In this document: positions 9,279-59,095 of the stretch, piece by piece
Layout of the letters: every line of letters starts with the position of its first letter
How positions within the stretch are numbered: position 1 is the stretch's first letter
Origin: Arenicola marina
Lineage: Eukaryota > Annelida > Polychaeta > Arenicolidae
Direction: 5' to 3'
DNA: 64,000 nucleotides
Assembly: GCA_964019135.1 (NCBI GenBank)
Contig: OZ025260.1
Location: forward strand, 29,816,254-29,880,253
Notes under the pieces: generated by a model
Database searches by the model: none
What the model was told of the DNA's origin: nothing
The model's input: only the letters and a program-made list of their open reading frames with translations
Made by a program: the position numbers and the translations under genes

Positions 9279-9370
9279 TTTGATATCTATAATTTGTTCG
9301 TACAGTATTTCTACCCCATTTTGCTCATGTACTATAATTTGCTCTATAATTTGTTCGTACAGTATTTCTA

Positions 9371-15010: not shown

Positions 15011-15149
15011 GGTAAATGTTGATACTGAACCCAACGCAGAACAGAAATGAAGCTATAGCATCAATATGAGGCATGAGGCATATGTCTGAGTATATTTACT
15101 TTGACCGTGAGTGTCCCAATCTCGATCAGATCCTGTAGTGAATGTACAT

Positions 15150-25554: not shown

Positions 25555-25621
25555 ATGGCGGACAGGACGCAGCAGGAGGAGTCCTTCGGATACCGACAGC
25601 TCTGTCGGGAAGCCATTCTGG
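25555..25621 (+). CDS. CWH43: CWH43-A exon 1 (start codon)
   Basis: The ATG sits in GTCATGGCG, a fair start context, and is followed by 22 codons and one base before the donor CTGG|GTAAGA. The peptide starts [10 protein letters not shown] and ends LCREAILG, which lines up with the LWREILLESLLG start of vertebrate CWH43. Its last base completes the split Gly codon opened by GA at exon 2. No promoter element was identified upstream. Confidence 0.82.
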
Positions 25622-28600
25622 GTAAGACGTGATGGCAATCGGTTTTGCCTGTCGCCCATCAGCGGTGAAGATAAAACGATATGCTATGTCCATTCGTTGC
25701 TCAGCTGTCAATTACGTCCAATCACTTAGCTTCATTTTACGTCATAGGGGTCTAAAAGCGGAAGGGGGAGTCGTGTCCAGTGTCGATTTGGCTAAATTCT
25801 CAGTGTCGAATGTCGATTTTTCACGACGTTCAGTACAGTTATTTTCTAAAATGCCACAGTCTGTGTTCGATGTCGCTTTTTCAGATATGCCTGTGTCGTG
25901 TGTTGTCATTTACCTCGTTCCAGACCATTCGTCATTCATCTCGATATTATAACAATATTGCGCCTACGAGCCATGTTACCCAACAAATTTAGTGTTTAAA
26001 AAACAGATGTGGTTTCAATCAAAAAAAAATATTATGAATAAATGTGACTTTATGAAATACTTATATGAGTCATTGGCAACCGGCAATCCGCCCCCCCCCC
26101 CCCCTTCCCTCCGCCACCCACCTCCCACGCCTACTTACCGAATCGAATGGGTTTTGTAGGATTCGTCTTCTGGAGCCTGTTCCAGACCCTGGCGCCCATG
26201 ATCTGGTTCTACCCCCTCAACGCCATGGAGATCTCTGGATACGAAGTCTTCCTCCTGCTCCTGTACAGTCCCTGCATCATGGGCATCCGGCCCCTACGCA
26301 GTCTGATCCAGACGAGAACCGGACTCGGTCTGTTCCGGATCGCCGCTCTGGCCTCGCTGGGATCCTTCCAAGCTCCGGATACACTGACACGTCTGGTCGT
26401 CTTGGCAACGGGATGCTTCATGGTGATGGTCGTCTTCACAGCCAGTCTGTGGAGCGAGTCAGCCTACCAGAGGTAACCTGGAGCAGCTGGGAGACAAACC
26501 CACGACAGAGGTCACAGGTCACTGTTGAGGCAGAGGTCAACGGTCATTGCAAAGGCAGAGGTCAAAGGTCACTGCTAAGGCTGAGGTCAGAGGTCACTGA
26601 TGAGGCAGAGGTCAAAGGTCACTGCTAAGGCTGAGGTCAGAGGTCACTGATGAGGCAGAGGTCAGAGGTCACTGCAAAGACAGAGGTCAAAGGCCACTTC
26701 TAAGGCAGAGGTCACAGGTCACTGCTAAGGCAGAGGTCAGAGGTCACTCCTGAGGCAGAGGTCAGATGTCACTGCTGAGGCAGAGGTCAGAAGTCACTGC
26801 TGAAGCAGAGGTCGGAGGTCACTGCTGAGGCAGAGGTCAGAGGTCACTGCAGAGGCAGATTTTAGAGGTCACTGCTGAGGCAGAGGTCAGAGATCACTGG
26901 TGAGGGTCTTGCTGTCCAGAGATCTTTTTAGGTTTCAGCAGTCACGAAACTGCTATTGCATGTGGTTGGTTGGCATGTATTACCGTAAATATCTATGTAA
27001 ATACGTTTTTGCATTATTCATACAGTGTCACTATAATACAATTTCAATCCTGTAGCACACGATATAGAAATTCACGAAACGATGGTTTTTGATAATAGGA
27101 TCAGTAATCACACAACATAATTGCAATCAAACCTTCATTTGCGAACATTATCATAACTGGAAGAGTTAGTAGAAGTTATAGTCCTGGATTCTTTGATATA
27201 TGGTTTCATAAGTTATTCAACAGGGATGACATCCATGTAGCAAGCAGTCACATGTTACAACAGCCATGTTATAAGCCTGCCGCTAGTTTATTTATAAGAC
27301 GACTCTAGAGTATTAAGCTTTTGGGTCTACATACATTGTCATCTACTTCAAAGGCGAATAACCAATCATGTCGGAAAGTCAAAAAATATATTCATAATAG
27401 TAATAATAATAATTAAGTTATTGTGTGTACATAAATTGTCATATACTTAAATGGCAATCACATGGGAAGATTAAATCTAGTAATAATAATAACCGTTCAA
27501 TGCACTCATCTACGATCGCTCCACTTAAGGCGATATATGCCACATCCCCTTGGCACTCAGCAGGCCACTGTTTGTTTTACTGCCACAGGCGGCTCACCTT
27601 CTGGGGTCTAATGCTGGGCCTCTCCGCCTTCTGGTCCAGTCGAGTCTGGCTCACCTCCTTCGTTCCCACTTGGTGGAGCCACCAGTCCAACGCGATCTGC
27701 ATTGCCATAGCAACGCTGGCGACAGTAGATAAGATCGCATCAGGTACCACAGAATTGTTGTGGAATTATTTTATGTTTTCTCAAGGACCAGCTGCTAATT
27801 GCTTTCAGAATAGTGTTAGTTGAAATATATATTTATCTGATGCCCACAATAATTCTGCTCGGTTCTTGGTTACTTCCCGCCGAAACCAAGACGAAAGTAA
27901 TAATCCATACTAGCTCTACCATGGCTTCTGATAATATTACCCACAGATATATATTTATGTCGATACTATTATCATGATTGTATCGCTTTTGATTGTTTTT
28001 ATAATCGTTTTATAGTTGTTATTATTTGCTTTAATTAATATTCCATTTATTATTATTGCTATTATTATTGTAATTGTTATTTTCATATTTTCTCTTATTG
28101 TTGTCAATATCGATATTATTTTCGCTATATTGCCGTGAAGGCGAGGATGGACTGAAGAAATCAAAACAACAAGGACAACAAACAACAGATAATCCAAGAT
28201 GGCTGCCTGTCAGTATCGGGGCCGGAAGTTTGCTCTTCTTGACTCAGTGGATCTACGGCGAGGTTTCCGTGGTAACGAGATGGACCGTGGGCCCCTACCC
28301 CGACACCGGACCCATGCCCTACCCATGGGGGTAAGCCACATCGAATAGTTAATGACTTTATTCCAGACTAGCTCCGAAAACATAAAAATGCCGTTTGCAT
28401 AGTAATCACATTGTATATTCATATGTATATATATATAAGATAACAAAGTTTTATTTAACGTATGTATGTAAAAATCAACAATAAACATCAGCACAAGTGC
28501 TCTTGACCGAAAATATATATATATATTAATTTATATATTCGCTAGTCGCAAAATGCTACCCTCAATGGCATAATCTAGCCCCTAAGTCAATTACATCAGT

Positions 28601-31600
28601 CGAAGGTTTAAGTTTTGTCTTTTCCCGTGTCAACCCGCGCTGTTAATGTCACCCCCAGGGCGCTGGTGATGGTGTGTCTCTTGCTGGGGTTCATGGTCGG
28701 GTCCCCCGGGTCCGGCCAGGGCCGCCTCCTCCTCCTCTGGGTCCTGGGGGTATGTGCACTCCTGGCGCTCTACTACCTCCACACCTGGGCCGCCTTCACA
28801 GGTCAGTCTCGCGGGAACGTGGGCCAGCAGCTGGGCGACACCTAGCGGCGAGATGCGCAAGTGTCACCGTCTCCTAATGGCCGGTTCCCGGCCCGGGCGA
28901 TAATCAAGAATTATGCTGACTAATACCGAAACTGGCGCTTCATTACGCTTCGCTCATGCATTACGTTGTCGTACTTGGTTTGACAGCTGTGTGTCGCATT
29001 TTCTGAAGCTTCCTTCGCCAGGCTTGATCCATATGTCCACAAAGTTGGCCTTAACTACCAAGCCAAACCGTTTTTAATATTTCACCGTTAAGTTTCACAC
29101 TCGTCACTGGAATTAAGTGACCATTCACCATTATTTAACAAAGGCCGTGCTCGATCTTTCAGGCGGCTGCATATTAGCGGTGGTCACAACGTCCTTGTGG
29201 CCTGTCATGGCCGAGCGACTGACCACGTGCCCGCCTGCGCGCGCCATGGTCGTCATGGTAACCACGTGGATAGTGCTGATCCTGCATGAGATATGGACGG
29301 TGGCCTACAACTTTGTGCCCGGGGGGACGGCTACGAGGGAGCACACCGACCACCTAATCGTCCTTGTCATGGCCGGCATCGCACTGGGACTATTTGCAGG
29401 TCCGTCTTCATACGTCTGGGGTCGTATCGTCACTTAGACTACGCCACTAGACTTAGCGCTATATATTATGTGATAATACGCTCGTGAGTTAAGCACGAAA
29501 AGTGCGTTTTCGTCTTAGCCTCACTAGCTCGTTGTGGTGGTGCTCATGATTAAACAATCGTCTTCAATATAATTTTAGCACTTTCTTAATTCAGAAAATC
29601 CATATCTTGTATGACTATTTATGTATTTTGAACCTGAAAATCGCTCGACAAATCTTGCGCTTAGCGCTAAGTCTTGTGGCGTAGCCTAAGGGGCGATTAT
29701 GAATACGGCCCCAGTTCTCTTAACAGTCAGATTTGGTTTTTCTTTTGTATGAGTAGGGAGATCGCTAATCACATCGAACTGGCGCTATTTGCAGGTCCGT
29801 CTTCATACGCCTTGTCTCAAGCTCAGTCAGATTTGAGTTTATTTGTGTTGGGGGTTATGGAGATCGCTTATCACGCTAAACTAACTGAACGTTTTGGCAA
29901 GACGTTATTCGCTGCAGAAATTGTTAGTGATGTATTACGGTAACACTATTGATGGCCATATGGCATGTAAGCTGCCAGTCGGTCAGGAACATGTAACTGA
30001 TGATTGGCTACAGATAGCATACCCATACACTAATCGCTCCCTGTAAAATACCGGGTTGTCAAATGTACATGACCTTGCGGATGACATCCTAAACTGTGTG
30101 CGATGTGGATTAATATAACTTTATTTTTCTCTCAAGCAGGAGTCCCTACCCGAAGTCGAAAACTTGATTAAGGTTACGAATGTATTCGTCTCCCAGGCGG
30201 GAGTCCGTCCCCGAAGTCGGAAACTTGATTAATGTTACGGATATATTCGTCTCCCAGGCAGGAGTCCGTCCCCGCAGTCGAAAGCCCCAGGGGTGAAGGT
30301 TGGCATTGGGTCGATGCCCAAGACTGTCGCCGTGCAATGTGAGTGTCGTACCCACCATCACTTCACCTCACTGCTGACATCACGCCACAGGCATGATTGG
30401 TTGTATATTCAGGACGCCTTAACCACTCTTGGCCATACCGCGTCAATCGGAGAAGGAAAGGAGAGTGCAGCCATGTCCCCGGGGGGAACCCCCTACTCTT
30501 TGCGAAGAAGCACATGGAATCTTTATCCTGTGACCACACAGACATGGCCACATCAGGGTTCGAACCATCGACCCACGTACCGTTAGGCTGTCAGGTGGCC
30601 AGAGCACTCAAGGCGAGCGTTCTAACCCACTGAGCTATCGGGCCGGTCCCCCAAAGGCATGGAATAACGTAATGGTCTGGAGACGGTCGGCCAACCGTAT
30701 TAAATGGTAAACACAATCCGACTGTTCAGCGAAAATATATCACGAGATAAAACGATGATTCAGAAGAAGCCTCTTGGGGTACACTGGTTATACAGTCGTA
30801 TCTTAGAGGACTCCCCACTCCGGTCAACCTCATTGGCCGGAACGTATGAACGGGTTTATGGTCTATAGCATTCTAGACTCCCCCCCCCCCCCCTATTGAG
30901 GCCGGCGCGATAGCTCAATGGGCTAGAGCGCTCGCATTGAGTGCTCTGGCCACCTGAGAGCCTAACGGCACGTGGGGCGGTAGTTCGCGCCCTGCTGTGG
31001 CCGTGTCTGTGTGGTCGCAGGATAAAAATCCCGTGTCGTTCTTCGTAAAGAGTATTCGGTTACCCGCGGGGACATGGCTCCACTCTCCTTTCCTTCTCCC
31101 ATTGACGCGATATGACCAAAAGTGGTTATAGCGTCTTAAATACCCAACCAACCAACCAACTCGCCTCTTGGCCAAAACGTTTCAATGACGGGTCAATGAC
31201 GCAATCACGAGATGGCTAGTTCTATGTGATTGTCAAGACTGTGTGCATTGCCAATAGACTCTGAGAAAATGCTTACTTTAACTAGTGAGTATCATTAGTT
31301 AAGTTGGTATTTGCAAGAACCTAAGCTGAACAACTTTTGTCCAGCAGGCTCTGGCTGTGGCACAGTGTATCACAGAGTAAGTGTGAAACCCATTAATTCA
31401 TCTATTAAAACAACAACAAATATATACTTATCTCTCCCTTTGATTGATATATACTGTAGTGCCCCCCGCCCCCCCCCCCCCCCCCCCCACCACTCGCCCC
31501 GCCTCTCATACACATACTCAGAGATGGTGTGATTCTACCTTTCAGTGTTTCTGATCATTCTGCTGCTGGGACTGGGGGGCTTCGTCTACCGGGCACCTCG

Positions 31601-34600
31601 ACAGAAGGTCACATCCCCAATACAGGTAGAGAGGGCAGACTGTCAACACACGTAACACTGCCGCCTGCTCACTCACAGGTAGAGAGGGCAGACTGTCTAC
31701 ACACGTAACACTGCCGCCTGCTCACTCACAGGTAGAGAGGGCAGACTGTCAACACACGTAACAGTGCCGCCTGCTCACTCACAGGTAGAGAGGGCAGACT
31801 GTCAACACACGCAACACTGCCGCCTGCTCACTCACAGGTAGAGAGGGCAGACTGTCAACACACGTAACACTGCCGCCTGCTCACTCACAGGTAGAGAGGG
31901 CAGACTGTCAACACACGTAACACTGCCGCCTGCCCACTCACAGGTAGAGAGGGCAGACTGTCTACACACGTAACACTGCCGCCTGCTCACTCACAGGTAG
32001 AGAGGGCAGACTGTCAACACACGTAACACTGCCGCCTGCTCACTCAAAGGTAGAGAGGGTAGACTGTCAACACACGTAACACTGCCGCCTGCTCACTCAC
32101 AGGTAGAGAGGGCAGACTGTCAACACACGTAACACTGCCGCCTGCTCACTCACAGGTAGAGAGGGCAGACTGTCAACACACGTAACACTGCCACCTGCTC
32201 ACTCACAGGTAGAGAGGGCAGACTGTCAACACACGTAACACTGCCGCCTGCCCACTCACAGGTAGAGAGGGCAGACTGTCAACACACGTAACACTGCCAC
32301 CTGCTCACTCACAGGTAGAGAGGGCAGACTGTCAACACACGTAACACGGCCGCCTGCTCACTCACAGGTAGAGAGGGCAGACTGTCAACACACGTAACAC
32401 TGCCGCCTGCTCACTCACAGGTAGAGAGGGCAGACTGTCAACACACGTAACAGTGCCGCCTGCTCACTCACAGGTAGAGAGGGCAGACTGACAACACACG
32501 TAACACTGCCGCCTGCTCACTCACAGGTAGAGAGGGCAGACTGTCAACACACGTGACACAGCCGCCTGCCCACTCACAGGTAGAGAGGGCAGACTGTCAA
32601 CACACGTAACACTGCCGCCTGCTCAATCACAGGTAGAGAGGGCAGACTGTCAACACACGTAACACTGCCGCCTGCTCACTCACAGGTAGAGAGGGCAGAC
32701 TGTCAACACACGTAACACTGCCGCCTGCTCACTCACATGTAGAGAGGGCAGACTGACAACACACGTAACACTGCCGCCTGCTCAATCACAGGTAGAGAGG
32801 GCAGACTGTCAACACACGTAACACTGCCGCCTGCTCACTCAGAGGTACAGAGGGCAGACTGTCAACACACGTAACACTGCCGCCTGCTCACTCACAGGTA
32901 CAGAGGGCAGACTGTCAACACACGTAACACTGCCGCCTGCTCACTCACAGGTAGAGAGGGCAGACTGTCAACACACGTAACACTGCCGCCTGCTCACTCA
33001 CATGTAGAGAGGGCAGACTGACAACACACGTAACAGTGCCGCCTGCTCACTCACAGGTAGAGAGGGCAGACTGTCAACACACGTAACACTGCCGCCTGCT
33101 CACTCAGAGGTACAGAGGGCAGACTGTCAACACACGTAACACTGCCGCCTGCTCACTCACAGGTACAGAGGGCAGACTGTCAACACACGTAACACTGCCG
33201 CCTGCTCACTCACAGGTAGAGAGGGCAGACTGTCAACACACGTAACACTGCCGCCTGCTCACTCACAGGTAGAGAGGGCAGACTGTCAACACACGTAACA
33301 CTGCCACCTGCTCACTCACAGGTAGAGAGGGCAGACTGTCAACACACGTAACACTGCCGCCTGCTCACTCACTGGTACAGATGGCAGACTGACAACACAC
33401 GTAACACTGCCGCCTGCTCACTCACAGGTAGAGAGGGCAGACTGTCAACACACGTAACACTGCCGCCTGCTCACTCACAGGTACAGAGGGCAGACTGTCA
33501 ACACACGTAACACTGCCGCCTGCTCACTCACAGGTAGAGAGGGCAGACTGTCAACACACGTAACACTGCCGCCTGCTCACTCACATGTAGAGAGGGCAGA
33601 CTGACAACACACGTAACACTGCCGCCTGTTCACTCACAGGTAGAGAGGGCAGACTGTCAACACACATAACACTGCCGCCTGCTCACTCAGAGGTACAGAG
33701 GGCAGACTGTCAACACACGTAACACTGCCGCCTGCTCACTCACAGGTACAGAGGGCAGACTGTCAACACACGTAACACTGCCGCCTGCTCACTCACAGGT
33801 AGAGAGGGCAGACTGTCAACACACGTAACACTGCCGCCTGCTCACTCACATGTAGAGAGGGCAGACTATCAACACACGTAACACTGCCACCTGCTCACTC
33901 ACAGGTAGAGAGGGCAGACTGTCAACACACGTAACACTGCCGCCTGCCCACTCACAGGTAGAGATGGCAGACTGTCAACGCACGTAACACTGCCGCCTGC
34001 TCACTCACAGGTAGAGAGGGCAGACTGTCAACACACGTAGCACTGCCGCCTGCTCACTCACAGGTAGAGAGGGCAGACTGACAACACACGTAACACTGCC
34101 GCCTGCTCACTCACAGGTAGAGATGGCAGACTGTCAACACACCTAACACTGCCGCCTGCTTACTCACGGCAGACTGTCAACACACGTAACACTGCCGCCT
34201 GCTCACTCACAGGTAGAGAGGGCAGACTGTCAACACACGTAACACTGCCACCTGCTCACTCACTGGTACAGATGGCAGACTGACAACACACGTAACACTG
34301 CCGCCTGCTCACTCACAGGTAGAGAGGGCAGACTGTCAACACACGTAACACTGCCGCCTGCTCACTCACAGGTACAGATGGCAGACTGTCAACACACGTA
34401 ACACTGCCGCCTGCTCACTCACAGGTAGAGAGGGCAGACTGTCAACACACGTAACACTGCCGCCTGCTCACTCACATGTAGAGAGGGCAGACTGACAACA
34501 CACGTAACACTGCCGCCTGCTCACTCACAGGTAGAGAGGGCAGACTGTCAACACACGTAACACTGCCGCCTGCTCACTCAGAGGTACAGAGGGCAGACTG

Positions 34601-37600
34601 TCAACACACGTAACACTGCCGCCTGCTCACTCAGAGGTACAGAGGGCAGACTGTCAACACACGTAACACTGCCGCCTGCTCACTCACAGGTAGAGAGGGC
34701 AGACTGTCAACACACGTAACACTGCCGCCTGCTCACTCACATGTAGAGAGGGCAGACTGTCAACACACGTAACACTGCCACCTGCTCGCTCACAGGTAGA
34801 GAGGGCAGACTGTCAACACACGTAACACTGCCGCCTGCCCACTCACAGGTAGAGATGGCAGACTGTCAACACACGTAACACGGCCGCCTGCTCACTCACA
34901 GGTAGAGAGGGCAGACTGTCAACACACGTAGCACTGCCGCCTGCTCACTCACAGGTTGAGAGGGCAGACTGACAACACACGTAACACTACCGCCTGCTCA
35001 CTCACAGGTAGAGAGGGCAGACTGTCAACACACGTAACACTGCCGCCTGCTCACTCACAGGTAGAGAGGGCAGACTGTCAACACACGTAACACTGCCGCC
35101 TGCTCAATCACAGGTAGAGATGGCAGACTGTCAACACACGTAACACTGCCGCCTGCTCAATCACAGGTAGAGAGGGCAGACTGTCAACACACGTAACACT
35201 GCCACCTGCTCAATCACAGGCAGAGAGGGCAGACTGTCAACACACGTAACACTGCCGCCTGCTCACTCACAGGTAGAGATGGCAGACTGTCAACACACCT
35301 AACACTGCCGCCTGCTTACTCACAGGTAGAGAGGGCAGACTGTCAACACACGTAACACTGCCGCCTGCTCACTCACAGGTAGAGAGGGCAGACTGCCAAC
35401 ACACGTAACACTGCCACCTGCTCACTCACTGGTACAGATGGCAGACTGATAACACACGTAACACTGCCGCCTGCTCACTCACAGGTAGAGAGGGCAGACT
35501 GTCAACACACGTAACACTGCCGCCTGCTCACTCACAGGTACAGATGGCAGACTGTCAACACACGTAACACTGCCGCCTGCTCACTCACAGGTACAGATGG
35601 CAGACTGTCAACACACGTAACACTGCCGCCTGCTCACTCACAGGTAGAGAAGGCAGACTGTCAACACACGTAACACTGCCGCCTGCTCACTCACAGGTAC
35701 AGATGGCAGACTGTCAACACACGTAACACTGCCGCCTGCTCACTCACAGGTACAGATGGCAGACTGTCAACACACGTAACACTGCCGCCTGCTCACTCAC
35801 AGGTACAGATGGCAGACTGTCAACACACGTAACACTGCCGCCTGCTCACTCACAGGTAGAGAGGGCAGACTGTCAACACACGTAACACTGCCGCCTGCTC
35901 ACTCACAGGTACAGATGGCAGACTGTCAACACACGCAACACTGCCGCCTGCTCACTCACAGGTACAGATGGCAGACTGTCAACACACGTAACACTGCCGC
36001 CTGCTCACTCACAGGTAGAGAAGGCAGACTGTCAACACACGTAACACTGCCGCCTGCTCACTCACAGGTAGAGAGGGCAGACTGTCAACACACGTAACAC
36101 TGCCGCCTGCTCACTCACAGGTAGAGAAGGCAGACTGTCAACACACGTAACACTGCCGCCTGCTCAATCACAGGTAGAGAGGGCAGACTGTCAACACACG
36201 TAACACTGCCGCCTGCTCACTCACAGGTAGAGAGGGCAGACTGTCAACACACGTAACACTGCCGCCTGCTCACTCACATGTAGAGAGGGCAGACTGACAA
36301 CACACGTAACACTGCCGCCTGCTCAATCACAGGTAGAGAGGGCAGACTGTCAACACACGTAACACTGCCGCCTGCTCACTCAGAGGTACAGAGGGCAGAC
36401 TGTCAACACACGTAACACTGCCGCCTGCTCACTCACAGGTACAGAGGGCAGACTGTCAACACACGTAACACTGCCGCCTGCTCACTCACAGGTAGAGAGG
36501 GCAGACTGTCAACACACGTAACACTGCCGCCTGCTCACTCACATGTAGAGAGGGCAGACTGACAACACACGTAACAGTGCCGCCTGCTCACTCACAGGTA
36601 GAGAGGGCAGACTGTCAACACACGTAACACTGCCGCCTGCTCACTCAGAGGTACAGAGGGCAGACTGTCAACACACGTAACACTGCCGCCTGCTCACTCA
36701 CAGGTACAGAGGGCAGACTGTCAACACACGTAACACTGCCGCCTGCTCACTCACAGGTAGAGAGGGCAGACTGTCAACACACGTAACACTGCCGCCTGCT
36801 CACTCACAGGTAGAGAGGGCAGACTGTCAACACACGTAACACTGCCACCTGCTCACTCACAGGTAGAGAGGGCAGACTGTCAACACACGTAACACTGCCG
36901 CCTGCTCACTCACTGGTACAGATGGCAGACTGACAACACACGTAACACTGCCGCCTGCTCACTCACAGGTAGAGAGGGCAGACTGTCAACACACGTAACA
37001 CTGCCGCCTGCTCACTCACAGGTACAGAGGGCAGACTGTCAACACACGTAACACTGCCGCCTGCTCACTCACAGGTAGAGAGGGCAGACTGTCAACACAC
37101 GTAACACTGCCGCCTGCTCACTCACATGTAGAGAGGGCAGACTGACAACACACGTAACACTGCCGCCTGTTCACTCACAGGTAGAGAGGGCAGACTGTCA
37201 ACACACATAACACTGCCGCCTGCTCACTCAGAGGTACAGAGGGCAGACTGTCAACACACGTAACACTGCCGCCTGCTCACTCACAGGTACAGAGGGCAGA
37301 CTGTCAACACACGTAACACTGCCGCCTGCTCACTCACAGGTAGAGAGGGCAGACTGTCAACACACGTAACACTGCCGCCTGCTCACTCACATGTAGAGAG
37401 GGCAGACTGTCAACGCACGTAACACTGCCGCCTGCTCACTCACAGGTAGAGAGGGCAGACTGTCAACACACGTAGCACTGCCGCCTGCTCACTCACAGGT
37501 AGAGAGGGCAGACTGACAACACACGTAACACTGCCGCCTGCTCACTCACAGGTAGAGATGGCAGACTGTCAACACACCTAACACTGCCGCCTGCTTACTC

Positions 37601-47713: not shown

Positions 47714-47792
47714 CGGTATGAAGTACTTGGGTGTACTCATGTGGTACTGGTGCTCTGGTGCCCAGTTATGGCCCTGTTTGAAAGAACCGAAC
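47711..47792 (-). CDS. CWH43: CWH43-B exon 14 (stop codon)
   Basis: On the minus strand the acceptor is CTTTCAG. The exon encodes [20 protein letters not shown] and then PKYFIP, followed by TGA. It closely matches the human C-terminus FGSYKEGHN...HMNTPKYFL. The TGA is the first half of a TGACGTCA that opens the 25-bp array. Confidence 0.93.
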
Positions 47793-50700
47793 CTGAAAGT
47801 AAAAAAATGTTCGCATCAAAAACTTTCAGGCAAACATTTCACAATTGATACACGAAAAAAAAAGTAATACTTTAATAAACACATTCAAGAATCGCGCTAA
47901 GATTATCATATTATATCCTAAAAGCTGCTCATACAGCGAGTTGGCACTAAAATAATGACTTTTGAGAATTTTTTGGAAAAAAACATTATCTGCCTGTGAA
48001 TGTCAACTCTACGAAATAAATAGATTATCGCATTTACAATGGAAAATAATGACAGCGATACCCGAATTTTGATGACGTAGTACACAAGAAAGTCACTTTT
48101 ATCAACTGCGATAACTACACGCTTGTAACTCGCACCAGAGTGACGACTACGGACTGCTGTACCTGGAGCTAAAGTGAACCTCTTTGGAGACCTTGTCTGG
48201 ATCAGTCACCACTCTCGAGTTGTCCTGGAGCTCCTCGCCATCCTTCGGGATCCGGAATTTGGCCATCTGGAGCTCCGTGTCGCTAAGACCCGCGTGCGAT
48301 ACCCGGGCGTAACCAAGTCTGTAACCATGGGAACGCTCAGGGTGTCAATGCTAATAATGCATTAGCAGTTTATGTTATCGAACCTCTCTTTTTCAGTCGA
48401 GTGAAGCCAAACAAGGAGAGGCAGTGTAAGAACGTATGATTAGATGTAGACCTTGGGCTGCTGGTTATACTCATATTATCCGCCCCTGAAGGACCAGTAA
48501 TAGCACACACACACACATCAATCTATTTCAGGTTGAGATACAATTGGTTAAAGCGTCCTGAAAATACAACCAATTAACCAAACATCAGTGTATTTCAGGT
48601 TAAGATATCTATTGCGCCCCGGGTTAAGTGGTACGACCGTGCTGCGGTGTTCATCAAACTGTCGATACACATCTCTTGGGGTAAACGGACAGTTGTTCCA
48701 GACCTTAAAAAAGCAAAACAATTAAACTGTTTTAGTTGATAATTTTCAACAAGTTTGTCGGGACAATACATTTTGTTGTCATAGGGACGGCACCCACCTC
48801 TGAAGCCCCCTGTACATGATATATTCACACCAGCGTTCCTTGTCCGTCGCGTCGATATCCTGGACGTGACCTTTCTGGGTCAACTCCATGTAGTCACGGC
48901 TGAACGGAGCGGAAGTGACGTAACCAAGGAAGATCACGGGGTTTTCTCTGTGTAACGAAAACAAGACTTGTTTGTGGAGTAGTCTTGAGTAACAGTAATA
49001 GTATATTGGTCAGCGATACAGCCTTGCATGTCAGCCCTACAGCCATATGGGTCAGCGCTACATCCCTACGGGTCAACGCTACAGCCTTATAGGTCAGCGC
49101 TACAGCCTTATAGGTCAACGCTACAGCCATATGGGTCAGCGCTACAGCCTTATAGGTCAGCGCTACAGCCTTATAGGTCAGCGCTACAGCCTTATAGGTC
49201 AGCGCTACAGCCATACGGGTCAGCGCTACAGCCTTATAGGTCAGCCCTACAGCCAGATGGGTCAGCGCTACAGCCTTATAGGTCAGCGCTACAGCCTTAT
49301 AGGTCAGCGCTACAGCCATATGGGTCAACGCTACAGCCATATGGGTCAACGCTACAGCCTTATAGGTCAGCGCTACAGCCTTATAGGTCAGCGCTACAGC
49401 CTTATAGGTCAGCGCTACAGCCATACGGGTCAGCGCTACAGCCATACGGGTCAGCGCTACAGCCATATGGGTCAACGCTACAGCCTTATAGGTCAGCGCT
49501 ACAGCCATACGGGTCAGCGCTACAGCCATATGGGTCAGCGCTACAGCCATATGGGTCAGCGCTACAGCCTCAGCGTCCATAATACCGCCTGGCGCAAGTG
49601 GTTCCATCAACCTTAAGATTATATCCGTTAACTCCGTCAAGTAAACCTGGCGTCACGCTCATCTCCGTTAGCATTACGCCCATCTCCGTTAGCCTTACGC
49701 CCATCTCCGTTAGCCGCACGTCCGTCTCCGTTAGAATTACGCCAATCTCCGTTAGCATTATACGCTTATCGCCGTTAGCCTAGCCTTACGCCTATCTTCG
49801 TTAACCCTACGCCTGCCTCCGTTAGCCTCACGTCAGTCTTCGTTAGCCTTACGCCTGTTTCCGTTAGCCTCACGCCTATCTCCGTTAGCCTTACGCCCAT
49901 CTCCGTTAGCCTCACGTCCATCTCCGTTAGCTTTAAGCCTATCTCTGTTAGTCTCAAGCCCATCTCCGTTAGTCTCACGCCTATCTCCGTTAGCATTACG
50001 CCTATCTCCGTTAACACTACGCCCATCTCCGTTAGCCGCACGTCCGTCTCCGTTAGCATTACGCCCATCTCCGTTAGCATTATACGCTTATCGCCGTTAG
50101 CCTAGCCTTACGCCTATCTTCGTTAACCCTACGCCTGCCTCCGTTAGCCTCACGTCAGTCTTCGTTAGCCTTACGCCTGTTTCCGTTAGCCTCACGCCTA
50201 TCTCCGTTAGCCTTACGCCCATCTCCGTTAGCCTCACGTCCATCTCCGTTAGCTTTAAGCCTATCTCTGTTAGTCTCAAGCCCATCTCCGTTAGTCTCAC
50301 GCCTATCTCCGTTAGCATTACGCCTATCTCCGTTAACACTACGCCTATCGCCGTTAGCCTTGCGCCTATCTCCGTTAACTTTAAGCCTATCTCCGTTAGT
50401 CTCACGCCTATCTCCGTTAGTCTCGCGCCTATCTCCGTTAGCCTTACGCCTGTTTGAGCTCCCCCGCCAGGTGTCGCGCCTGCAGATCGCGGTCCATGAC
50501 GTCACGGTCGTTGCCCATGTGCGTGACGACCAAGTCGACGAGTCGTCCTGTCACGTTGACAGTGGCTGTCACGGCCGGCGCCAGCTCACCTGCGACACAC
50601 AGACAGACGTGACAGAGAGCTGCGACACACAGACAGAGTGACAGAGACCTGCGACACAGAGACAGAGTGACAGAGACCTGCGACACACAGACAGAGTGAC

Positions 50701-53700
50701 AGAGACCTGCGACACACAGACAGAGTGACAGAAACCTGCGACACACAGAGTGACAGACCTGCGACACACAGACAGAGTGACAGAGACCTGCGACACACAG
50801 ACAGAGTGACAGAAACCTGCGAAACACAGACAGAGTGACAGAGACCTGCGACACACAGACAGAGTGACAGAGACATGCGACACACAGACAGTGATAGAGA
50901 CCTGCGACACACAGACAGTGACAGAGACCTGAGACACACAGACAGAGTGACAGAGACCTGCGACACACAGACAGTGACAGAGACCTGCGACACACAGACA
51001 GAGTGACAGAGACCTGCGACACACAGACAGAGTGACAGAGACATGCGACACACAGACAGTGACAGAGACCTGCGACACACAGACAGAGTGACAGAGACCT
51101 GAGACACACACACAGTGACAGAGACCTGCGACACACAGACAGAGTGACAGAGACCTGCGACACACAGACAGAGTGACAGAGACCTGCGACACACAGACAG
51201 TGACAGAGACCTGCGACACACAGACAGAGTGACAGAGACCTGCGACACACAGACAGAGTGACAGAGACCTGCGACACACAGACAGTGACAGAGACCTGCG
51301 ACACACAGTGACAGTGATAGAACTCCAAAACCCCAAAAGTACATTTACGCGAGAAGACATTTCACGCTGACATAGTTTTGCATTTATTGGAAGCGAGCGA
51401 ATCACAAACACCATACAGATAAAGACTATTATAGGTTCAATGTAGTTTCCCACCTGACTCAACAGACCTGTGCGTATAGAAGTAAATTTAAGTATCCGTG
51501 TTTACACAAACAACACCACTTACTCACACGGGTCGAGTGTATGACTTACCCATAGGGGATGGCAGCAGATGGTGCTTAGACTTGACAAAAGGGTACTTCG
51601 AGAGAATTAAATTACTGAAAAATAACACGGGAAAATGTCAGGAGAACTACAAAAAAAGTTGACTTAGTAGCGTATATGACATAATGCATATAGTAACGAG
51701 CCAAAAGCCCATGCAGGCATTTTTCAAATATTAAATGTCACTGTTCCTTGTGAGATAATAGCAAGTAAATATGTTCCACTGCCGAGTCCTCGCACGCCAC
51801 CTAGCGAACAAAGCAGGAAGTACTTCCCGGCTAGTGTCAGCACCGTACTGAACACCCCCGCCACCCACACCGGCCGCCAGACGGCGCCACCACTCACCCC
51901 CACGTGTGGTCCCGCGTGGAGGGCCCGAAGTCGACGTACATGCCCAGCCTCTCCCCCAGCCACTGACCCAGGTCGTTGTTGCCTAGGAACGGCTTGGAGG
52001 CGTCGCTCTCCAGCAGGGTGATCACATCGGCGCCTGGAGGGGCGAGGGGGGGGGGGGGGGAGGGGGAGGGGGGGGGGGGAGTGACACGACATTAGGAAAC
52101 AGCTGGGAAGTGATGTGGAAGGAGGGAGGTAGCCATAGAAACATATCAATATAACAATTGTATGAGAAACTAAATCTGGACTCTTTTATGGGTCAAAAAC
52201 AAATAATTATAGTCTCAGAGTGAAGTTAATACCGGTAATAACGCTTCATAAGAGCACCGCGCGTCTCGAATATGTTCAACCCGTGACAGTCATTGAATCC
52301 AGGACGATATCGGACCTGAGTCGTTCATGAGTTGGGCTCCCCGCTGCAGACTGACCCTCCCCTCTCTCCCCAGGTTGTCATAGGGTTAGGGTTAGTGACA
52401 GATGACATCTGACCTGAGTCGTTGATGAGCTGAGCACCCCGCTCCAGACTGACCTGAGTCGTTGATGAGCTGGGCTCCCCGCTCCAGACTGACCTGAGTC
52501 GTGGATGAGCTGAGCACCCCGCTCCAGACTGACCTGAGTCGTTGATGAGCTGGGCTCCCCGCTCCAGACTGACCTGAGTCGTTGATGAGCTGAGCACCCC
52601 GCTCCAGACCGACCTGAGTCATTGATGAGCTGGGCATCCCGCTCCAGACTGACCTGAGCCGTGGATGAGCTGAGCACCCCGCTCCAGACTGACCTGAGTC
52701 GTGGATGAGCTGAGCACCCCGCTCCAGACTGACCTGAGTCGTTGATGAGCTGGGCTGCCCGCTCCAGACTGACCTGAGTCGTTGATTAGCTGGGCTCCCC
52801 GCTCCAGACTGACCTGAGTCGTTGATGAGCTGAGCTCCCCGCTCCAGACTGACCTGAGTCGTTGATTAGCTGAGCACCCCGCCCCAGACTGACCTGAGTC
52901 GTTGATGAGCTGAGCTCCCCGCTCCAGACTGACCTGAGTCGTTCATGAGCTAAGCTCCCCGCCCCAGACTGACCTGAGTCGTTGATGAGCTGAGCACCCC
53001 GCTCCAGACTGATCTGAGTCGTTGATGAGCTGAGCACCCCGTTCCAGACTGACCTGAGTCGTTGATTAGCTGGGCTCCCCGCTCCAGACTGACCTGAGTC
53101 GTTGGTGAGCTGAGCACCCCGCCCCAGACTGACCTGAGTCGTTGATGAGCTGGGCTCCCCGCTCCAGACTGACCTGAGTCGTTGATGAGCTGGGCTCCCC
53201 GCTCCAGACTGACCTGAGTCGTTGGTGAGCTGGGCTCCCCGCCCCAGACTGACCTGAGTCGTTGATGAGCTGGGCTCCCCGCTCCAGACTGACCTGAGTC
53301 GTTGATGAGCTGGGCTCCCCGCTCCAGACTGACCTGAGTCGTTGATGAGCTGGGCTCCCCGCTCCAGACTGACCTGAGTCGTTGATGAGCTGGGCTCCCC
53401 GCTCCAGACTGGGCCACCCCTTGTTGTCATAGCCGAAGTGGTACGTCCAGATGGCCGCTGTGAACGTGTCCTGGGGGAGGGGGAGGGGGAGGGAGGGGAG
53501 ACGTATAAGTTAATGTTTAAGGAACTTTCGCCCTCGGACTCCATTATTATCCGGTGATGTCGTTTTCCGAGGACATTAACTTATGTAAAATCCACGTCTT
53601 TATGACTCAAACACACTACATTACAGAAAAATAATGTCGTGAGAGAACAATGAAGTGACGTCATCAGTGGATTTTACATCAACATCAACAACATCATGTA

Positions 53701-56700
53701 AACAATCGGGCCATCCTCGATCTTATCGTCCATCAAATCCGTTGTTGAACCATACGCTAGGCAGGAGTAATACGTGAGCTATACAAAAGTCAAAAGTTCG
53801 AGTTCTGGCACATCTATTTCCTGCAGTTTACTTTGTTAGGCTTTGGTTACAGTTATCCATCTCTCGTCCTTGATCAACTCGTGTTGTTTGGCACATAGCT
53901 TTGTGTATTAGAGATATTAGTGCGCCAACTAGCGCTGAGTGGTAAGACGACAATGACGATACCTTGTCTGGACGGGAAAACTGTTGCCGTGGAAACCTCG
54001 CCGCAAACCCTCCCAGACCAATCATGACAATCAGCAACAGCACTGAAATCAGATCCCTAAGTAGTGATTAATATCATCTTGTAACTATGACAATACATAT
54101 ATTGATACTATAAATATCAGTATAAATATCAGTATAAATAAGAATAATCAATGATTCATTCTATTATTCCAAACACGGCAAGACTCCTATAGCAGAAGTC
54201 TCCAAAATTCCCTAGTCAACCATTACCGTATTTGCCTGTGTAAAAGCCATGGCTGGTGTCTCCAGCGAGAAATTATCGCAAAGATGAAAATAAGTGGAAA
54301 ATATGTTTTACAAAATTGGTCTCGCGGTTGCCATGGATACCTAGACTGGTCTGTGTAGATGGCGCCGTCTTGGCGGGCGTTCCGTATTCTATGAAAGCGC
54401 TGTGAGACTTCTGCTCCGGGCCGGGCTTCCCTGTATGTGGCAGACAGACACAGAACACTGGGATACAAAGAGATGAATGCTGGGCGGACATAGGACCGGC
54501 ATTAGGTGACGAAGTCACAAAAGCGCGCTCAAAAATACATTTATTAGAACTATTGATGATCTCTTGGCTATTATTTTATTTAATCTTGGCGGCCATCTTG
54601 AAAAATGGCGGCCATTTTATATTATTCCAACGAATTCTTAGTTTGCATTGTTCAACAGGTCAAACTGCAAAAGTACTTACAAATTCGTACAATAATCTCT
54701 TGGAACGATTTTATTTTATGGAATTTTTTTGGTTATCTTGGCAGCCAGTCTCTTGTGTTCCCTGTCTCACTCACCTGTCAATATGGCCGCTTCTATACAA
54801 ATCATGACAGCCGCTGACAGCCAGTCGCTGACAGCCAGTCGCTGACAGCCAGCCGCTGACAGCCAGTCGCTATGTTCCCTGTCTCACTCACCTGTCAATA
54901 TGGCCGCTCCTATACAGATCATGACAGCCGCTGACAGCCAGTCGCTGTGTTCCCTGTCTCACTCACCTGTCAATATGGCCGCTCCTATACAGATCATGAC
55001 AGCCGCTGACAGCCAGTCGCTGTGTTCCCTGTCTCACTCACCTGTCAATATGGCCGCTCCTATACAGATCATGACAGCCGCTGACAGCCAGTCGCTGACA
55101 GTCAGCCGCGGACAGCCAGTCGCTGTGTTACCTGTCTCACTCACCTGTCAATATGGCCGCTCCTATACAGATTATGACAGCCGCTGACAGCCAGTCGCTG
55201 TGTTCCGTCACAATCACCTGTCAATATGGCTGCTCCTATACAGATCATGACAGCCGCTGACAGCCAGTCGTTGTGTTCCCTGTCTCACTCACCTGTCAAT
55301 ATGGCCGCTCCTATACAGATCATGACCGCCGCTGACAGCCAGTCGCTGTGCTCCCTGGTGAACTCTCCGCCGGGGACGAAGTTGTAGGCCACAGTCCAGA
55401 CCGAGAAGAGGACCTGCACCAGCCACACGGCCAGGGCCAAGGTCAAGGTCTTGACGGGCGGGCAGAGCGTCACACGGTCTACCATCTCGGGCCAGATGGA
55501 CATGGTGTACACCGCCAGCACCAGGCCCCCTGTACACAAACAGTGTACACAAACAGTGTAAACAAACAGTGTACACAAACAGAGTATACAGTGTACACAA
55601 ACAGAGTATACAGTGTACACAAGCAGTGTACACAGTGTACACAAACAGTGTACACAAACAGTGTACACATCGTATACAAACGTTGTACACCGTGTATACA
55701 AACGTTGTACACCGTGTATACAAACAGTGTACACAAACAGAGTATACAGTGTACCCAGTGTATAAACAGTGTACACAAACAGTGAACACAAACAGTGAAC
55801 ACAAACAGTGAACACAGTGTACACAAAAAGTGTACAACGATAAGGGGGGGGGGCAGAACACGTCGATTAGTAAGTTAATCTCAACTTAAGAATTAAGATC
55901 TAGTGATTCTTAATGTTGCAGGCGTAATTTGATATAACTTTAATCGCTCAAGATATTTCTTTCTATATATATGCCCAGACACCTGGCTTGTTATACCATT
56001 TGACTTCTCAGTTACATATGCAACTGGCGTAAAGATAGCTGAGATAGTAATTCCACTCATCTTACATGATCAGTAAACCAAGCAATCAAACTACAGTATT
56101 ACTGTGACATTCAAACAACTGCTACGTGAAACCTAATTAAACTAATTAACCCCTAAGGTAAACCCGAAGGGCGCCACCTACCGGCAAAAGCTTGCCACGT
56201 GTCCAGGTAATAGAGGGTTGCCATGGCGACGGCTCCGACCGCCCACCAGATGGGGCTGCGCACCAGGCGGTGACATATGGAGAGCTCCGTGCCGAGCCAG
56301 AGACACAGCAGGACGGCCGCCCTGTAGACACGGGGAGAAGGTCAAGGCCGTCCGGAGTACGAGCAGGGCTGGGTTGTGATGGGGGGAGGGGGGAGGGCAA
56401 GGTGGGGTGAGGAAGTCATATAAATACGATTTTATCACCAGGTAGGGCGAGGTGCCTGTGTACTCACCTTCAAGGACAGAGCATGGGGCCAGTGTACTCA
56501 CCTCCAGGGGTAGGGCGGGCGGTGGGGTCTGTGTACTTACCCCCAGGGGTAGGGCGGGCGGTGGGGTCTGTGTACTCACCCCCAGGGGTAGGGCGGGCGG
56601 TGGGGTCTGTGTACTCACCCCCAGGGGTAGGGCGGGCGGTGGGGTCTGTGTACTCACCCCCAGGGGTAGGGCGTGGGGCCGGTCTCCGGGTAGCCTTTCA

Positions 56701-59046
56701 CCGTCCAGCGGGCGAGCAGGGACACCTCCCCGAAGACCCACTGCGACAGGAACAACCAACTGCCGAAGCCGAGTCCGGCAAGCACCCAGTTGGGCGTCAC
56801 CACGCAACCTTTTGACCTTGGCTTCTCTCGCTGCTGTTGCTCGGGACTTTGGTGATCTAAAACAATAATTGCCCATATAGTACTTGGTCTCAATACCACC
56901 ACGCTATGACATCCCACAGGACATGCCTTTCATATTTAGCTTAGACATTTACTCCTAAGGGTGCGTTATGATCACCTACATCAGTACATGTGTGCAGCTC
57001 TAACCCTTACACACGTTAGAATACGAGTGCACTTCACCATGCAACATGGGATGAATCATTTGTACTTAGTAGTCAATAAATAACGACGGTGCAAATGTAG
57101 TTAACCATGGAAGAAATTCAAGAATATCATAAAACAAAAATTAAGCATTAACGCAGAGTCCTGCAAGGAGAGCGGCGTGGAAGCACAAGAAATTCAAGAA
57201 TGTCATAAAATTAAAATAAAGCAATAACGAAGGGTCCTACAATGACAGCGGCGCGGAAGAATATGGAAGAAATTCAAGATTATCATAGGAGCAAAATAAA
57301 GTAATAACCAAGCATCCTAACCAGTGACCTCACCGCTGGTTATTTTGTCTAGCGTGGCCACCACGGCGAGCGCTATGACCAGCGAGTTGGTGCGGGCGCT
57401 CCACCACGTGGGCACGAAGCTGGTGAACCACACCCGGCTGGAGATGAAGGCCATGAGTCCCAGCAGCAGACCCCAGCAGGTCTCCGCCCTGCAACACCAC
57501 ATCGTGTATTAATTACAGCGTGTGAACCTGGCCTGTGTGATATAGGGGTCTGGAAGGGGGGGGGGGGGGTCCAGTGTCCAGTGTCGATTTTTCAAAATTC
57601 TCAGTGTCGAATGTGTCGATTTTTTTTTTTTTTTGGCTAAGTTCAGTGTAGTTTTTTTTCCTATAAATCTGTGTCGATGTCGCTTTTTTTAGATCCTCAG
57701 TGTCGGTATTTGGGGGTCAATGGCGAATGTCGATTTTTCAAACATGCCTGTGTCGCGTGTCGCCATTTACCCCTTCCAGACTCCTTGATATATTGCTACT
57801 GTCCCTCATACAGCAATATATTCCCTGAGAAAGTTTTAGAATCTTTTGAAATTAAATAATGTATTTAGGTTCCCATCATGTGAATATTATCAACAGGAGA
57901 TCCCACTTTGAAATTTATCTCGCAACATACGTTATCAATCCTGGAGATTTATGCAATGCTGTAGTGTAGCACAGCAAACCATGGAAAACCAATAGAAAGA
58001 GACCGCATTGACATCTTCACTAGGGCAGAGATATACAAGGAACTATATTAAAAAGGTGATCATTATGTATAATGCGACAGCCATTTACAACAGATAATTA
58101 ATCATATTTTATGATCCAAGAAATAAATATGTATCTGTATTTGGTATAATATGTACGGTATATAGATGGCTAGTTAAATGGCTAGTTAAATGGACTGACC
58201 TCTGTCTTGGCCGACCCCACAGGGTGACAGTGAGTAGCAGCATGGCACAGGCACAACCCAAGCTCAGAGTCACCAGGCGGCTTAACGTGTCAGGGGCCTG
58301 GGGAAATCATTTATACACAACATAATCTCACTAAGTGCTACCACACAAATATGGACAAATTGGTTAACTAAAAAAAAAAAAACACATATATCAATCTTGT
58401 GAAGAATTCCCTAGATTAATGAATAAAATAGTGGTTGGTTGTATATTGAGGAAGCTTTAACCAATTGTGGCCATATCGCGTCAATAGATCCGCGAAGAAG
58501 AGAGAGTGGAGCCATGTCCCCGCGGGTAACCTCCTACTCTTTGCGAAGAAGGACATGGGATCTTTATCCTGCGACCACACAGACATGGCCACAGCGGGGC
58601 TCGAACCTCCGATCCACGTGCCGTTAGGCTCTCAGGTGGCCAGATCGAGCACCCAGGGCGAGTGCTCTAACCCACTGAGCTATCGGGTCGCCCCCACATC
58701 AAATAGTGAAGTCCATTGCAGTTTAAACTCATACCGGTAAATAGAACTAATTACACGATGGATATTTAGTACTACAGTCATAGCTTTGACACCTTGTATT
58801 GTATAGGCAGTGTGAATGTGGCTGCACTATATACCTGGAAAGAGGCGAGGGCGGCGACAGAGGCCAGTCTCAGCATGGCCGTGACGACCGGGGTCTGACA
58901 GAGCCTCCACAGAGGGCCTATGGACAGCAATAGCGGACTGAAGAGAAAGACGGCAAAGGCCTCATACCCCGAGATCTCCAGCTCGTTCAGCGGGTAGAAC
59001 CAGATCATAGGCGCCAAGGCTTGGAACAGGCACCAAAAGGTGAAAC
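47711..59046 (-). CDS. CWH43: CWH43-like protein, copy B (exon 1 not secure; 648 aa visible)
   Basis: This is a second GPI-anchor-remodelling family member, convergent with copy A. Exons in gene order are 59046-58835, 58297-58200, 57488-57334, 56856-56658, 56321-56182, 55529-55293, 54042-53963, 53470-53374, 52033-51898, 51614-51550, 50589-50448, 48947-48798, 48318-48163 and 47792-47711. After two leading bases they give 1947 nt in one frame, including the stop. All junctions are GT-AG, and no internal stop was seen. The membrane half ([13 protein letters not shown] to [12 protein letters not shown]) and the EEP-like half ([44 protein letters not shown]) are both kept. Exon 2 opens in the same codon phase as in copy A, so a first exon must lie above 59046. 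A weak candidate is 59733-59721 (ATG, four codons, then G|GTAAAT). The coding sequence looks intact, so this is probably a working paralog and not a pseudogene. Confidence 0.91.
48163..48318 (-). CDS. CWH43: CWH43-B exon 13
   Basis: On the minus strand the acceptor is GTTACAG and the donor is CTCCAG|GTACAG. The exon encodes [30 protein letters not shown] and KEVHFSS. Confidence 0.94.
48543..48574 (+). repeat. SINE tail fragment in the CWH43-B exon 12-13 intron
   Basis: GGTTAAAGCGTCCTGAAAAT followed by ACAACC matches the 3' end of the SINE family (GTTAAGGCGTCCTGAATATACAACC). Only about 30 bp remain. Confidence 0.6.
48798..48947 (-). CDS. CWH43: CWH43-B exon 12
   Basis: On the minus strand the acceptor is TTACACAG and the donor is CAGAG|GTGGGT. 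The exon encodes [36 protein letters not shown] and MYRGLQR. It is closer to the human wording ([14 protein letters not shown]) than copy A is. Confidence 0.94.
49010..49575 (-). repeat. 21-bp minisatellite in the CWH43-B exon 11-12 intron
   Basis: The + strand unit is CAGCGCTACAGCCTTATAGGT, about 26 copies, with variants CCATATGGG and CCATACGGG. A period divisible by three and no stops in most frames give long open frames on both strands (for example 49028-49582 and 48894-49640). These are artefacts of the repeat. The array ends about 60 bp before the exon 12 acceptor. Confidence 0.93.
49640..50447 (-). repeat. 21-bp minisatellite seeded by the exon 11 donor of CWH43-B
   Basis: On the coding strand exon 11 ends CAGGC|GTAAGGCTAAC, and the array repeats ATAGGCGTAAGGCTAACGG with variants GGCGTGAGAC and GGCGTAATGC. 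There are about 38 units of 21 bp, so the donor-like GGC|GTRAG recurs throughout. A 322-bp higher-order duplication is visible: the stretch from about 49779 matches that from about 50101. Confidence 0.92.
50448..50589 (-). CDS. CWH43: CWH43-B exon 11
   Basis: On the minus strand the acceptor is TGTCGCAG and the donor is CAGGC|GTAAGG. The exon encodes [20 protein letters not shown] and [16 protein letters not shown]. One Asp of the usual DDLDR is replaced (DVMDR). Arrays overlap both the acceptor and the donor. Confidence 0.93.
50585..51312 (-). repeat. 24/28-bp minisatellite seeded by the exon 11 acceptor of CWH43-B
   Basis: On the coding strand each unit reads CTGTGTGTCGCAGGTCTCTG then TCACTCTG, and the true acceptor is TGTGTCGCAG|GTGAGC. 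The 3' splice site, including its pyrimidine tract, is therefore copied about 26-28 times just upstream of the exon. Units are 28 bp, with 24-bp variants lacking GAGT. Open frames of 250-300 codons across it are repeat artefacts. Confidence 0.93.
51550..51614 (-). CDS. CWH43: CWH43-B exon 10
   Basis: On the minus strand the acceptor is TTTTTCAG and the donor is ATGG|GTAAGT. The exon encodes [20 protein letters not shown]. It is 65 nt, as in copy A. Confidence 0.94.
51898..52033 (-). CDS. CWH43: CWH43-B exon 9 (catalytic-type ESD motif)
   Basis: On the minus strand the acceptor is CCCTCCAG and the donor is TGGGG|GTGAGT. The exon encodes [28 protein letters not shown] and [13 protein letters not shown]. 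The Glu and Asp of ESDAS are kept. It is 136 nt, as in copy A. Confidence 0.95.
52320..53412 (-). repeat. 40-bp minisatellite seeded by the exon 8 end of CWH43-B
   Basis: On the coding strand the unit is CAGTCTGGAGCGGGGAGCCC then AGCTCATCAACGACTCAGGT. It copies the last 36 nt or so of exon 8 ([12 protein letters not shown]) and its donor TCAG|GTCAGT. There are about 27 units. The unit is free of stops in all three frames except in variants reading GCTAATCAAC, so some downstream donors could in principle add codons. Confidence 0.95.
53374..53470 (-). CDS. CWH43: CWH43-B exon 8
   Basis: On the minus strand the acceptor is CTCCCCCAG and the first donor is GACTCAG|GTCAGT. The exon encodes [20 protein letters not shown] and then [12 protein letters not shown]. 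The codons from SLERG onward and the donor form the unit of the 40-bp array, so the true exon end could be at any of many equivalent donors. Confidence 0.9.
53963..54042 (-). CDS. CWH43: CWH43-B exon 7
   Basis: On the minus strand the acceptor is GATTTCAG and the donor is GACAAG|GTATCG. The exon encodes [20 protein letters not shown] and QFSRPDK. It is 80 nt, exactly as in copy A, but its donor carries no array. Confidence 0.91.
54765..55335 (-). repeat. 75-bp minisatellite copying the 3' part of CWH43-B exon 6 and its donor
   Basis: CCTGTCAATATGGCCGCTCC recurs at 54774, 54891, 54966, 55041, 55144, 55217 and 55292; the last is the genuine donor. Each unit carries about 64 nt of exon ([20 protein letters not shown]) and GTGAGTGAG of intron. 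Spacings are 75 bp except where AGCCAGTCGCTGAC is further multiplied. Read-through gives TGA directly after the donor. Confidence 0.93.
55293..55529 (-). CDS. CWH43: CWH43-B exon 6
   Basis: On the minus strand the acceptor is TGTACAG and the donor is GACAG|GTGAGT. The exon encodes [44 protein letters not shown] and IGAAILTG. Arrays touch both edges: a 13-bp-type array at the acceptor, and a 75-bp array copying the last 64 nt or so plus the donor. Confidence 0.93.
55530..55840 (-). repeat. TGTACACTGTTTG-type minisatellite abutting the exon 6 acceptor of CWH43-B
   Basis: On the + strand it is a run of CAGTGTACACAAA (13 bp) mixed with CAGAGTATACAGTGTACAC. On the coding strand the last part-unit becomes the acceptor TTTGTGTACAG. 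Open frames here, such as 55285-55824 minus, join the array to the real exon 6 and are not separate genes. Confidence 0.9.
56182..56321 (-). CDS. CWH43: CWH43-B exon 5
   Basis: On the minus strand the acceptor is GTCTACAG and the donor is GCCG|GTAGGT. The exon encodes [20 protein letters not shown] and then [12 protein letters not shown]. It has D where copy A and vertebrates have H in YLHTW. Confidence 0.9.
56440..56665 (-). repeat. 39-bp minisatellite copying the exon 4 end and donor of CWH43-B
   Basis: CAGGGGTAGGG recurs at 56505, 56544, 56583, 56622 and 56661, always 39 bp apart, plus one worn unit near 56460. On the coding strand each unit holds CCCTACCCCTGGGGGTGAGT, that is PYPWG and the donor. 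Units are nearly identical, which suggests recent expansion. Confidence 0.95.
56658..56856 (-). CDS. CWH43: CWH43-B exon 4
   Basis: On the minus strand the acceptor is TGTTTTAG and the donor is TGGGG|GTGAGT. A Gln/Arg/Lys linker is followed by [30 protein letters not shown] and [10 protein letters not shown]. The exon end and donor are repeated five times in the 39-bp array downstream. Confidence 0.93.
57334..57488 (-). CDS. CWH43: CWH43-B exon 3
   Basis: On the minus strand the acceptor is TGTTGCAG and the donor is AGCG|GTGAGG. The exon encodes [34 protein letters not shown] and ATLDKITS. It is the same length (155 nt) as exon 3 of copy A. Confidence 0.93.
57546..57783. mobile_element. Short TIR element, TGTCGATTTTTC family, copy 3
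   Basis: The ends are GTCTGGAAGGGG and CCCCTTCCAGAC, a 12-bp inverted pair. The inside has four TGTCGATTTTT-type runs and GTGTCGCGTGTCGCCATTTA. It has no coding capacity and lies in the CWH43-B exon 2-3 intron, so both paralogs carry this family in a 5' intron. Confidence 0.7.
58200..58297 (-). CDS. CWH43: CWH43-B exon 2, second part
   Basis: On the minus strand the acceptor is TCCCCAG and the donor is ACAGAG|GTCAGT. The exon encodes [20 protein letters not shown] and then TLWGRPRQR. It is collinear with [15 protein letters not shown] to SAYQR of copy A exon 2. Confidence 0.9.
58433..58695 (-). repeat. tRNA-derived SINE in the CWH43-B intron between the two parts of exon 2
   Basis: It has the same body as the 30399 copy, with GGCCATGTCTGTGTGGTCGC and CGCAAAGAGTAGGAGGTTAC on the minus strand. 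The GCTCAGTGGGTTAGAGCAC head is near 58680. An insertion of about 9 bp separates it from the others near 58643. Confidence 0.87.
58835..59046 (-). CDS. CWH43: CWH43-B exon 2, first part
   Basis: On the minus strand the acceptor is TTTCAG and the donor is TTTCCAG|GTATAT. The exon encodes [30 protein letters not shown] and AALASFQ. It ends in phase 0 at a position where copy A has no intron. Confidence 0.91.
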
Positions 59047-59095
59047 CTGAAACATATACATCATGTATATATATATATATATAAACATAAGTTTG

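Follow-up and report, generated by a model that had tools for sequence, protein, structure and literature searches.

Two adjacent CWH43/PGAP2IP paralogs (genes A and B) of Arenicola marina carried ten minisatellite arrays within 1 nt of an exon edge or stop codon, one of which (B stop) reached its edge through extension by hand. These arrays are probably mirage-type minisatellites that would have arisen as edge-straddling duplications, been tolerated and then expanded, with part of their excess at edges having ordinary causes. The genes lie in a window of 64,000 nucleotides, the whole stretch of contig OZ025260.1 that was analysed (Table 1).

Arrays at the exon edges of two paralogs

Exon models of both genes were built on hand-placed anchors. 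All modelled introns were bounded by GT..AG and the joined coding sequences of A and B were open (B, without exon 1, encoding 648 aa from exons 2a, 2b and 3-14), consistent with predicted regular splicing despite the decoy splice sites of the arrays. Pfam detected the three PGAP2IP (CWH43) domains in A as well as B, among them the nuclease-like domain (E = 1.1e-95 and 3.8e-101, respectively). The two products shared 382 of 637 aligned residues (60% identity), and the genes were convergent, tail to tail. Relative to A, gene B contained an extra intron (58298-58834) that split an exon single in A (A2), apparently representing an intron gain or loss between the paralogs.

Arrays with a TRF score of at least 100 were collected from the genes and their 3' flanks, and merging of overlapping rows by hand yielded 16 arrays. 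Four weaker arrays (TRF score 50-99) were kept outside the main count; adding them gave 20 arrays, eight of which overlapped coding sequence. Gaps to the nearest edge were taken from TRF coordinates and signed, negative values indicating overlap with coding bases.

Table 1. Genes, tandem arrays, edge copies and reverse-transcriptase ORFs in the window
Feature	Position	Strand	Gap (nt)	Description
Gene A, CWH43/PGAP2IP paralog	25555-45194	+		14 exons, 688 aa; exon models and Pfam
Gene B, CWH43/PGAP2IP paralog	47711-63237	-		exons 2a, 2b, 3-14 at 47711-59046
Probable exon 1 of gene B	63198-63237	-		
Array, A intron 2	26506-26905	+	+33	25 bp; begins 33 nt past A2 donor; off edge
Array, A intron 6	30128-30283		+728	off edge
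Array, A7 donor	31622-40219	+	-4	53 bp x 162; begins 4 nt within exon A7
Array, A11 acceptor side	42122-42491	+	+11	20 bp; ends 11 nt short of exon A11
Array, A12 donor	43318-44132	+	-41	43/42 bp; unit with about 41 nt of exon A12 end and donor
Array, A intron 13	44846-44906		+170	off edge
Array, A stop	45186-45733	+	-9	40 bp; begins in last 9 coding nt, stop codon included
Array, B stop	47291-47716 (TRF 47291-47674)	-	+36 (TRF)	26 bp; hand extension reaches stop codon
Array, B intron 11	49004-49570	-	+56	21 bp; 56 nt from B12 acceptor; off edge
Array, B11 donor	49653-50451	-	-4	21 bp; begins 4 nt within exon B11
Array, B11 acceptor	50588-51308	-	-2	29 bp; acceptor-like units (pyrimidine-rich plus CAG); ends 2 nt within exon B11
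Array, B8 donor	52409-53411	-	-38	40 bp x 25; unit made of the last 38 nt of exon B8 and GT
Array, B6 donor	54808-55357	-	-65	75 bp; unit with the last 60 nt or so of exon B6 and donor
Array, B6 acceptor	55531-55836	-	+1	13-bp type; 1 nt from acceptor
Array, B4 donor	56484-56673	-	-16	39 bp; unit with the last 16 nt or so of exon B4 and donor
Array, B3 donor	57106-57319	-	+14	76 bp; begins 14 nt past donor
Single diverged A6 donor copy	29772-29812	+		23 nt exon plus 18 nt intron; 37/41 identical; 372 nt from donor
Probable remnant copy of exon A8	40992-41028	+		+63 in intron A8; donor-like end, internally deleted; interior score 33
Two reverse-transcriptase ORFs	6900-9377 and 12997-15060	-		RVT_1, E = 2e-35 and 7.9e-26

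By TRF coordinates, coding sequence was overlapped by eight of the 16 arrays, and by nine with the B stop array, whose first two units, diverged from the consensus (identities 0.73 and 0.69), were followed by hand to the TGA. Four of the 16 lay off edge. The initial annotation had claimed at least ten arrays at exon edges; exactly ten were found, one by hand extension, and at two of the twelve edges it had named the array lay further away (A2 donor, 33 nt; A11 acceptor, 11 nt). The B3 donor array was absent from its list.

Units spanned the exon-intron boundary at the donors of A7, A12, B4, B6, B8 and B11, and marginally at acceptors (B11, 2 nt). Self-alignments demonstrated that the donor units of A12, B4, B6 and B8 were exon-derived, containing 16-65 nt of true exon end and the 5' splice site in register. 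Overlap of at least 16 nt was confined to donors (four of six overlapping donors); it amounted to 9 nt at the A stop and to 2 nt or zero in the three acceptor arrays, and TRF detected no array at the start codon of A or B. Such a pattern, with deep overlap at donors and stop and little at acceptors and starts, would follow from use of the first donor or stop encountered.

Unit sequences differed from edge to edge. Comparison of A with B revealed no convincing similarity between units at the exon 11 acceptor (P = 0.055 and 0.36) or at the stop (P = 0.34 and 0.32), and common ancestry of the A and B arrays was thus unsupported in the two pairs compared. Within B intron 11, the pair of 21-bp arrays showed no clear relation (P = 0.085), and the A2 edge resembled the A2 array unit weakly (P = 0.02). 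The B8 array started at an exonic CAG and finished at the CAG of an intronic GTCAG; these ends would be compatible with slippage between 3-nt repeats, to judge from this one case. The 162-unit array at 31622-40219 repeated itself internally at offsets of 3435 and 3541 bp, with exact matches of 1194 and 1280 bp.

Edge enrichment relative to chance placement

Under an insertion-point null, which takes no account of unit length, 0.07 overlaps were expected against the eight of 16 observed. The main null used windows of unit length at any position not wholly coding, B intron 1 included, with a GC tolerance of 0.08 and substitution of the gene-wide value for introns with fewer than 10 matching windows. 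Against nine observed overlaps, uniform placement predicted 1.73 (P = 7e-6), GC-matched placement 2.58 (P = 1.2e-4), same-intron placement 2.58 (P = 1.5e-4) and same-intron placement with GC matching 3.94 of 16 (P = 3.9e-3), the rise from 1.73 to 3.94 being due to unit GC and intron length. A strict set of seven overlaps, from which the B stop and B11 acceptor were omitted, gave P = 0.06 against the same 3.94. The earlier judgement that the pattern was too regular for chance was somewhat overstated, given the rise in the null expectation, although nine overlaps still exceeded 3.94 (P = 0.004). Within 15 nt of an edge, 12 arrays were observed and 5.56 expected under the strictest null (P = 3.5e-4).

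Changing the tolerance of the same-intron, GC-matched null to 0.05 gave an expectation of 4.05 (P = 0.0043; strict set, P = 0.068), and a tolerance of 0.12 gave 3.41 (P = 0.0014; strict set, P = 0.030). Without B intron 1, the GC-matched expectation was 3.29 (P = 8e-4), and for introns alone seven of 14 arrays overlapped against 3.06 expected (P = 0.012). All enrichment P values are optimistic because the window was selected for a pattern that stood out.

Coding sequence had a GC content of 0.596 and noncoding sequence of 0.415; the nine overlapping arrays ranged from 0.436 to 0.705, all above the noncoding value. The edge excess has an ordinary component: units exceed the noncoding average in GC, exons hold most of the local GC-rich DNA, and introns are short. 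Composition and intron length together accounted for part of the excess, under half of the nine overlaps, and GC does not obviously explain the arrays that come within 5 nt of an edge (donors A7 and B11, acceptors B6 and B11). The leftover excess, about two-fold, may reflect a real bias of birth or retention at edges.

Decoy splice sites and edge copies outside the arrays

The decoy GT was intact in 158 of 162 A7 units, 24 of 25 B8 units, 15 of 18 A12 units, 30 of 37 B11 donor units and all B4 (5/5) and B6 (7/7) units, as was the decoy AG in 22 of 25 B11 acceptor units. Variant frequencies at the decoy dinucleotide and in the rest of the unit were, respectively, 0.019 and 0.021 (A7), 0.020 and 0.051 (B8), 0.083 and 0.122 (A12), 0.095 and 0.092 (B11 donor), 0.060 and 0.047 (B11 acceptor), 0.000 and 0.045 (B4), and 0.000 and 0.129 (B6, whose units were poorly cut). 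The decoy sites showed no special conservation, as 32-82% of unit dinucleotides in these seven arrays equalled or exceeded the decoy GT or AG in conservation. In A12, B4, B6 and B8 the GT was nevertheless less variable than other parts of the unit, and the decoys may be under weak selection.

Copies of edges were also sought in 26 introns (A intron 7 in part), with a threshold that required the best of 60 shuffles to be exceeded by more than 4. Donor copies passed it in seven introns (A6, A7, A12, B4, B6, B8 and B11) and acceptor copies in three (B6, B9 and B11), the B9 hit looking like a poly-C tract. A donor copy of A13 fell just short of the threshold, with a score of 25, and was left uncounted. 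Exon-interior scores other than that of the probable A8 remnant were 11-25, with the exception of exon B8 (36), where the tested stretch overlapped the repeated part.

Origin of the arrays and relation to known systems

According to the explanation favoured here, a short tandem duplication would have straddled an exon end or stop codon. Use of the first donor or stop met would leave mRNA and protein unchanged, so that the duplicate would be tolerated and could expand through unequal exchange or slippage; duplications entirely within coding sequence would be removed. The persistence of the edge excess after matching, the presence of several arrays flush with an edge (at most 5 nt away) and the differing units, which lacked convincing similarity in the two A/B pairs compared and thus indicate several separate births, would also suit a transcription- or splicing-linked process (R-loops, nicks or pausing at the exon-intron junction) that starts tandem duplications at edges. 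Such a trigger is considered unlikely: arrays occurred at both stop codons, which are no splice junctions, and the six array donors did not differ significantly from the 20 others in GC (P = 0.56), GC skew (P = 0.35) or donor strength (slightly higher; P = 0.085), in a comparison of low power. It is similarly doubtful that the boundary itself promotes birth, with constrained transcribed ends (donors, acceptors, stops) as mutational starting points here; if it did, exon edges would be nurseries for minisatellites and would supply new introns.

Edge arrays might also be longer-lived rather than born more often, if a selected, intact anchor copy kept seeding new copies. The three units next to the exon copy were 0.95-0.98 identical to it in A12, where later units fell to 0.56-0.84, and fully identical in B8; in B4 identity decreased with distance (rho -0.95, P = 0.051, five units). 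However, later B8 units also reached 1.00, and identity was not significantly related to distance from the exon for A12, B8, the B11 donor, A7 or either stop. A significant trend at the B11 acceptor was probably a unit-cutting error and was set aside. This lack of a general gradient, which also ruled against polar growth from the exon, makes continued seeding from an anchor rather improbable. That some arrays are assembly artefacts is very improbable, in view of the many different units, the internal divergence of the arrays and the published arrays of like kind in other genes, although internal repeats of the A7 array were 99.7% identical (offsets 3435 and 3541 bp). These near-identical repeats indicate either that the array recently expanded in large steps or that it was misassembled; the copy number of the arrays may be wrong, their existence hardly.

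The arrays belong with the mirages of amphioxus, a comparison already drawn in the initial annotation and borne out by the available portions of two reports (PMC3087553; PMC3902484). As described in those portions, mirages in the globins BflGb6 and BflGb9 can duplicate both 5' and 3' boundaries, in units of about 150-160 bp, and those of Adh3 have units of 10-72 bp and show somatic instability (Canestro 2002, via PMC3087553). They were reported not to disturb regular splicing, although decoy sites could be used, and were proposed as a route of intron gain (PMC3087553). A deep acceptor mirage has been reported, which counts against a strict polarity rule, and the acceptor mirage described in BflGb6 overturns the earlier suggestion that acceptor versions may be new (PMC3087553). 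Both systems consist of minisatellite-like tandem copies of donor and acceptor boundaries, many units carrying AG or GT. In contrast to amphioxus, two adjacent paralogs here combine ten arrays that lie no more than 1 nt from an edge; one of them comprises 162 units, and both stop codons carry an array. Lancelet PGBD5 contains 60- and 108-bp repeats that span 5' as well as 3' splice sites, with Adh and TnC as further examples; its 108-bp unit is triplicated, whereas arrays here had 3 to 162 units (PMC3902484, in part). In human segmental duplications, internal tandem repeats at exon-intron boundaries were proposed to form novel introns (PMC2812944, in part); these are likewise minisatellites at boundaries of paralogs, but with repeat-retaining alternative transcripts reported. 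The sections available of PMC4284660 and PMC2632668 contained no mention of edge-anchored tandem repeats; the latter reports that tandem repeats at the VCBP locus have a density in line with that of the amphioxus genome elsewhere.

Among the matches listed from open-licence literature (titles and abstract starts), none concerned a genome-wide edge test, stop-codon-anchored arrays or a like density. The kind of array is already known, and these paralogs are an unusually dense new example of a phenomenon otherwise described gene by gene in the literature found; the stop-codon-anchored arrays are a possible extension of mirages. For a genome-wide test, the example sets a null in numbers, based on GC and intron length, that has to be beaten. 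It also predicts a polarity, with overlap deep at donors and stops and slight at acceptors or starts, and adds material to the intron-gain model of PMC3087553.

In the flank at 1-25 kb, Pfam was applied to the two longest ORFs, both reverse transcriptases and probably of LINE type; no comparison gene was recognised by eye among the remaining ORFs. A dispersed element recurred at 30900-31130 (A intron 6), 58450-58690 (B intron 2a) and 59130-59300 (B intron 1). From motifs seen by eye it is presumed to be SINE-like with tRNA-like boxes; ARAGORN detected no tRNA in it. Units of the B 3' array (47291-47716) carried TGACGTCA, which overlaps the B stop codon and which we take to be a CRE-like palindrome, and motifs like TGACGTCA recurred in the intergenic stretch near 47100-47230.
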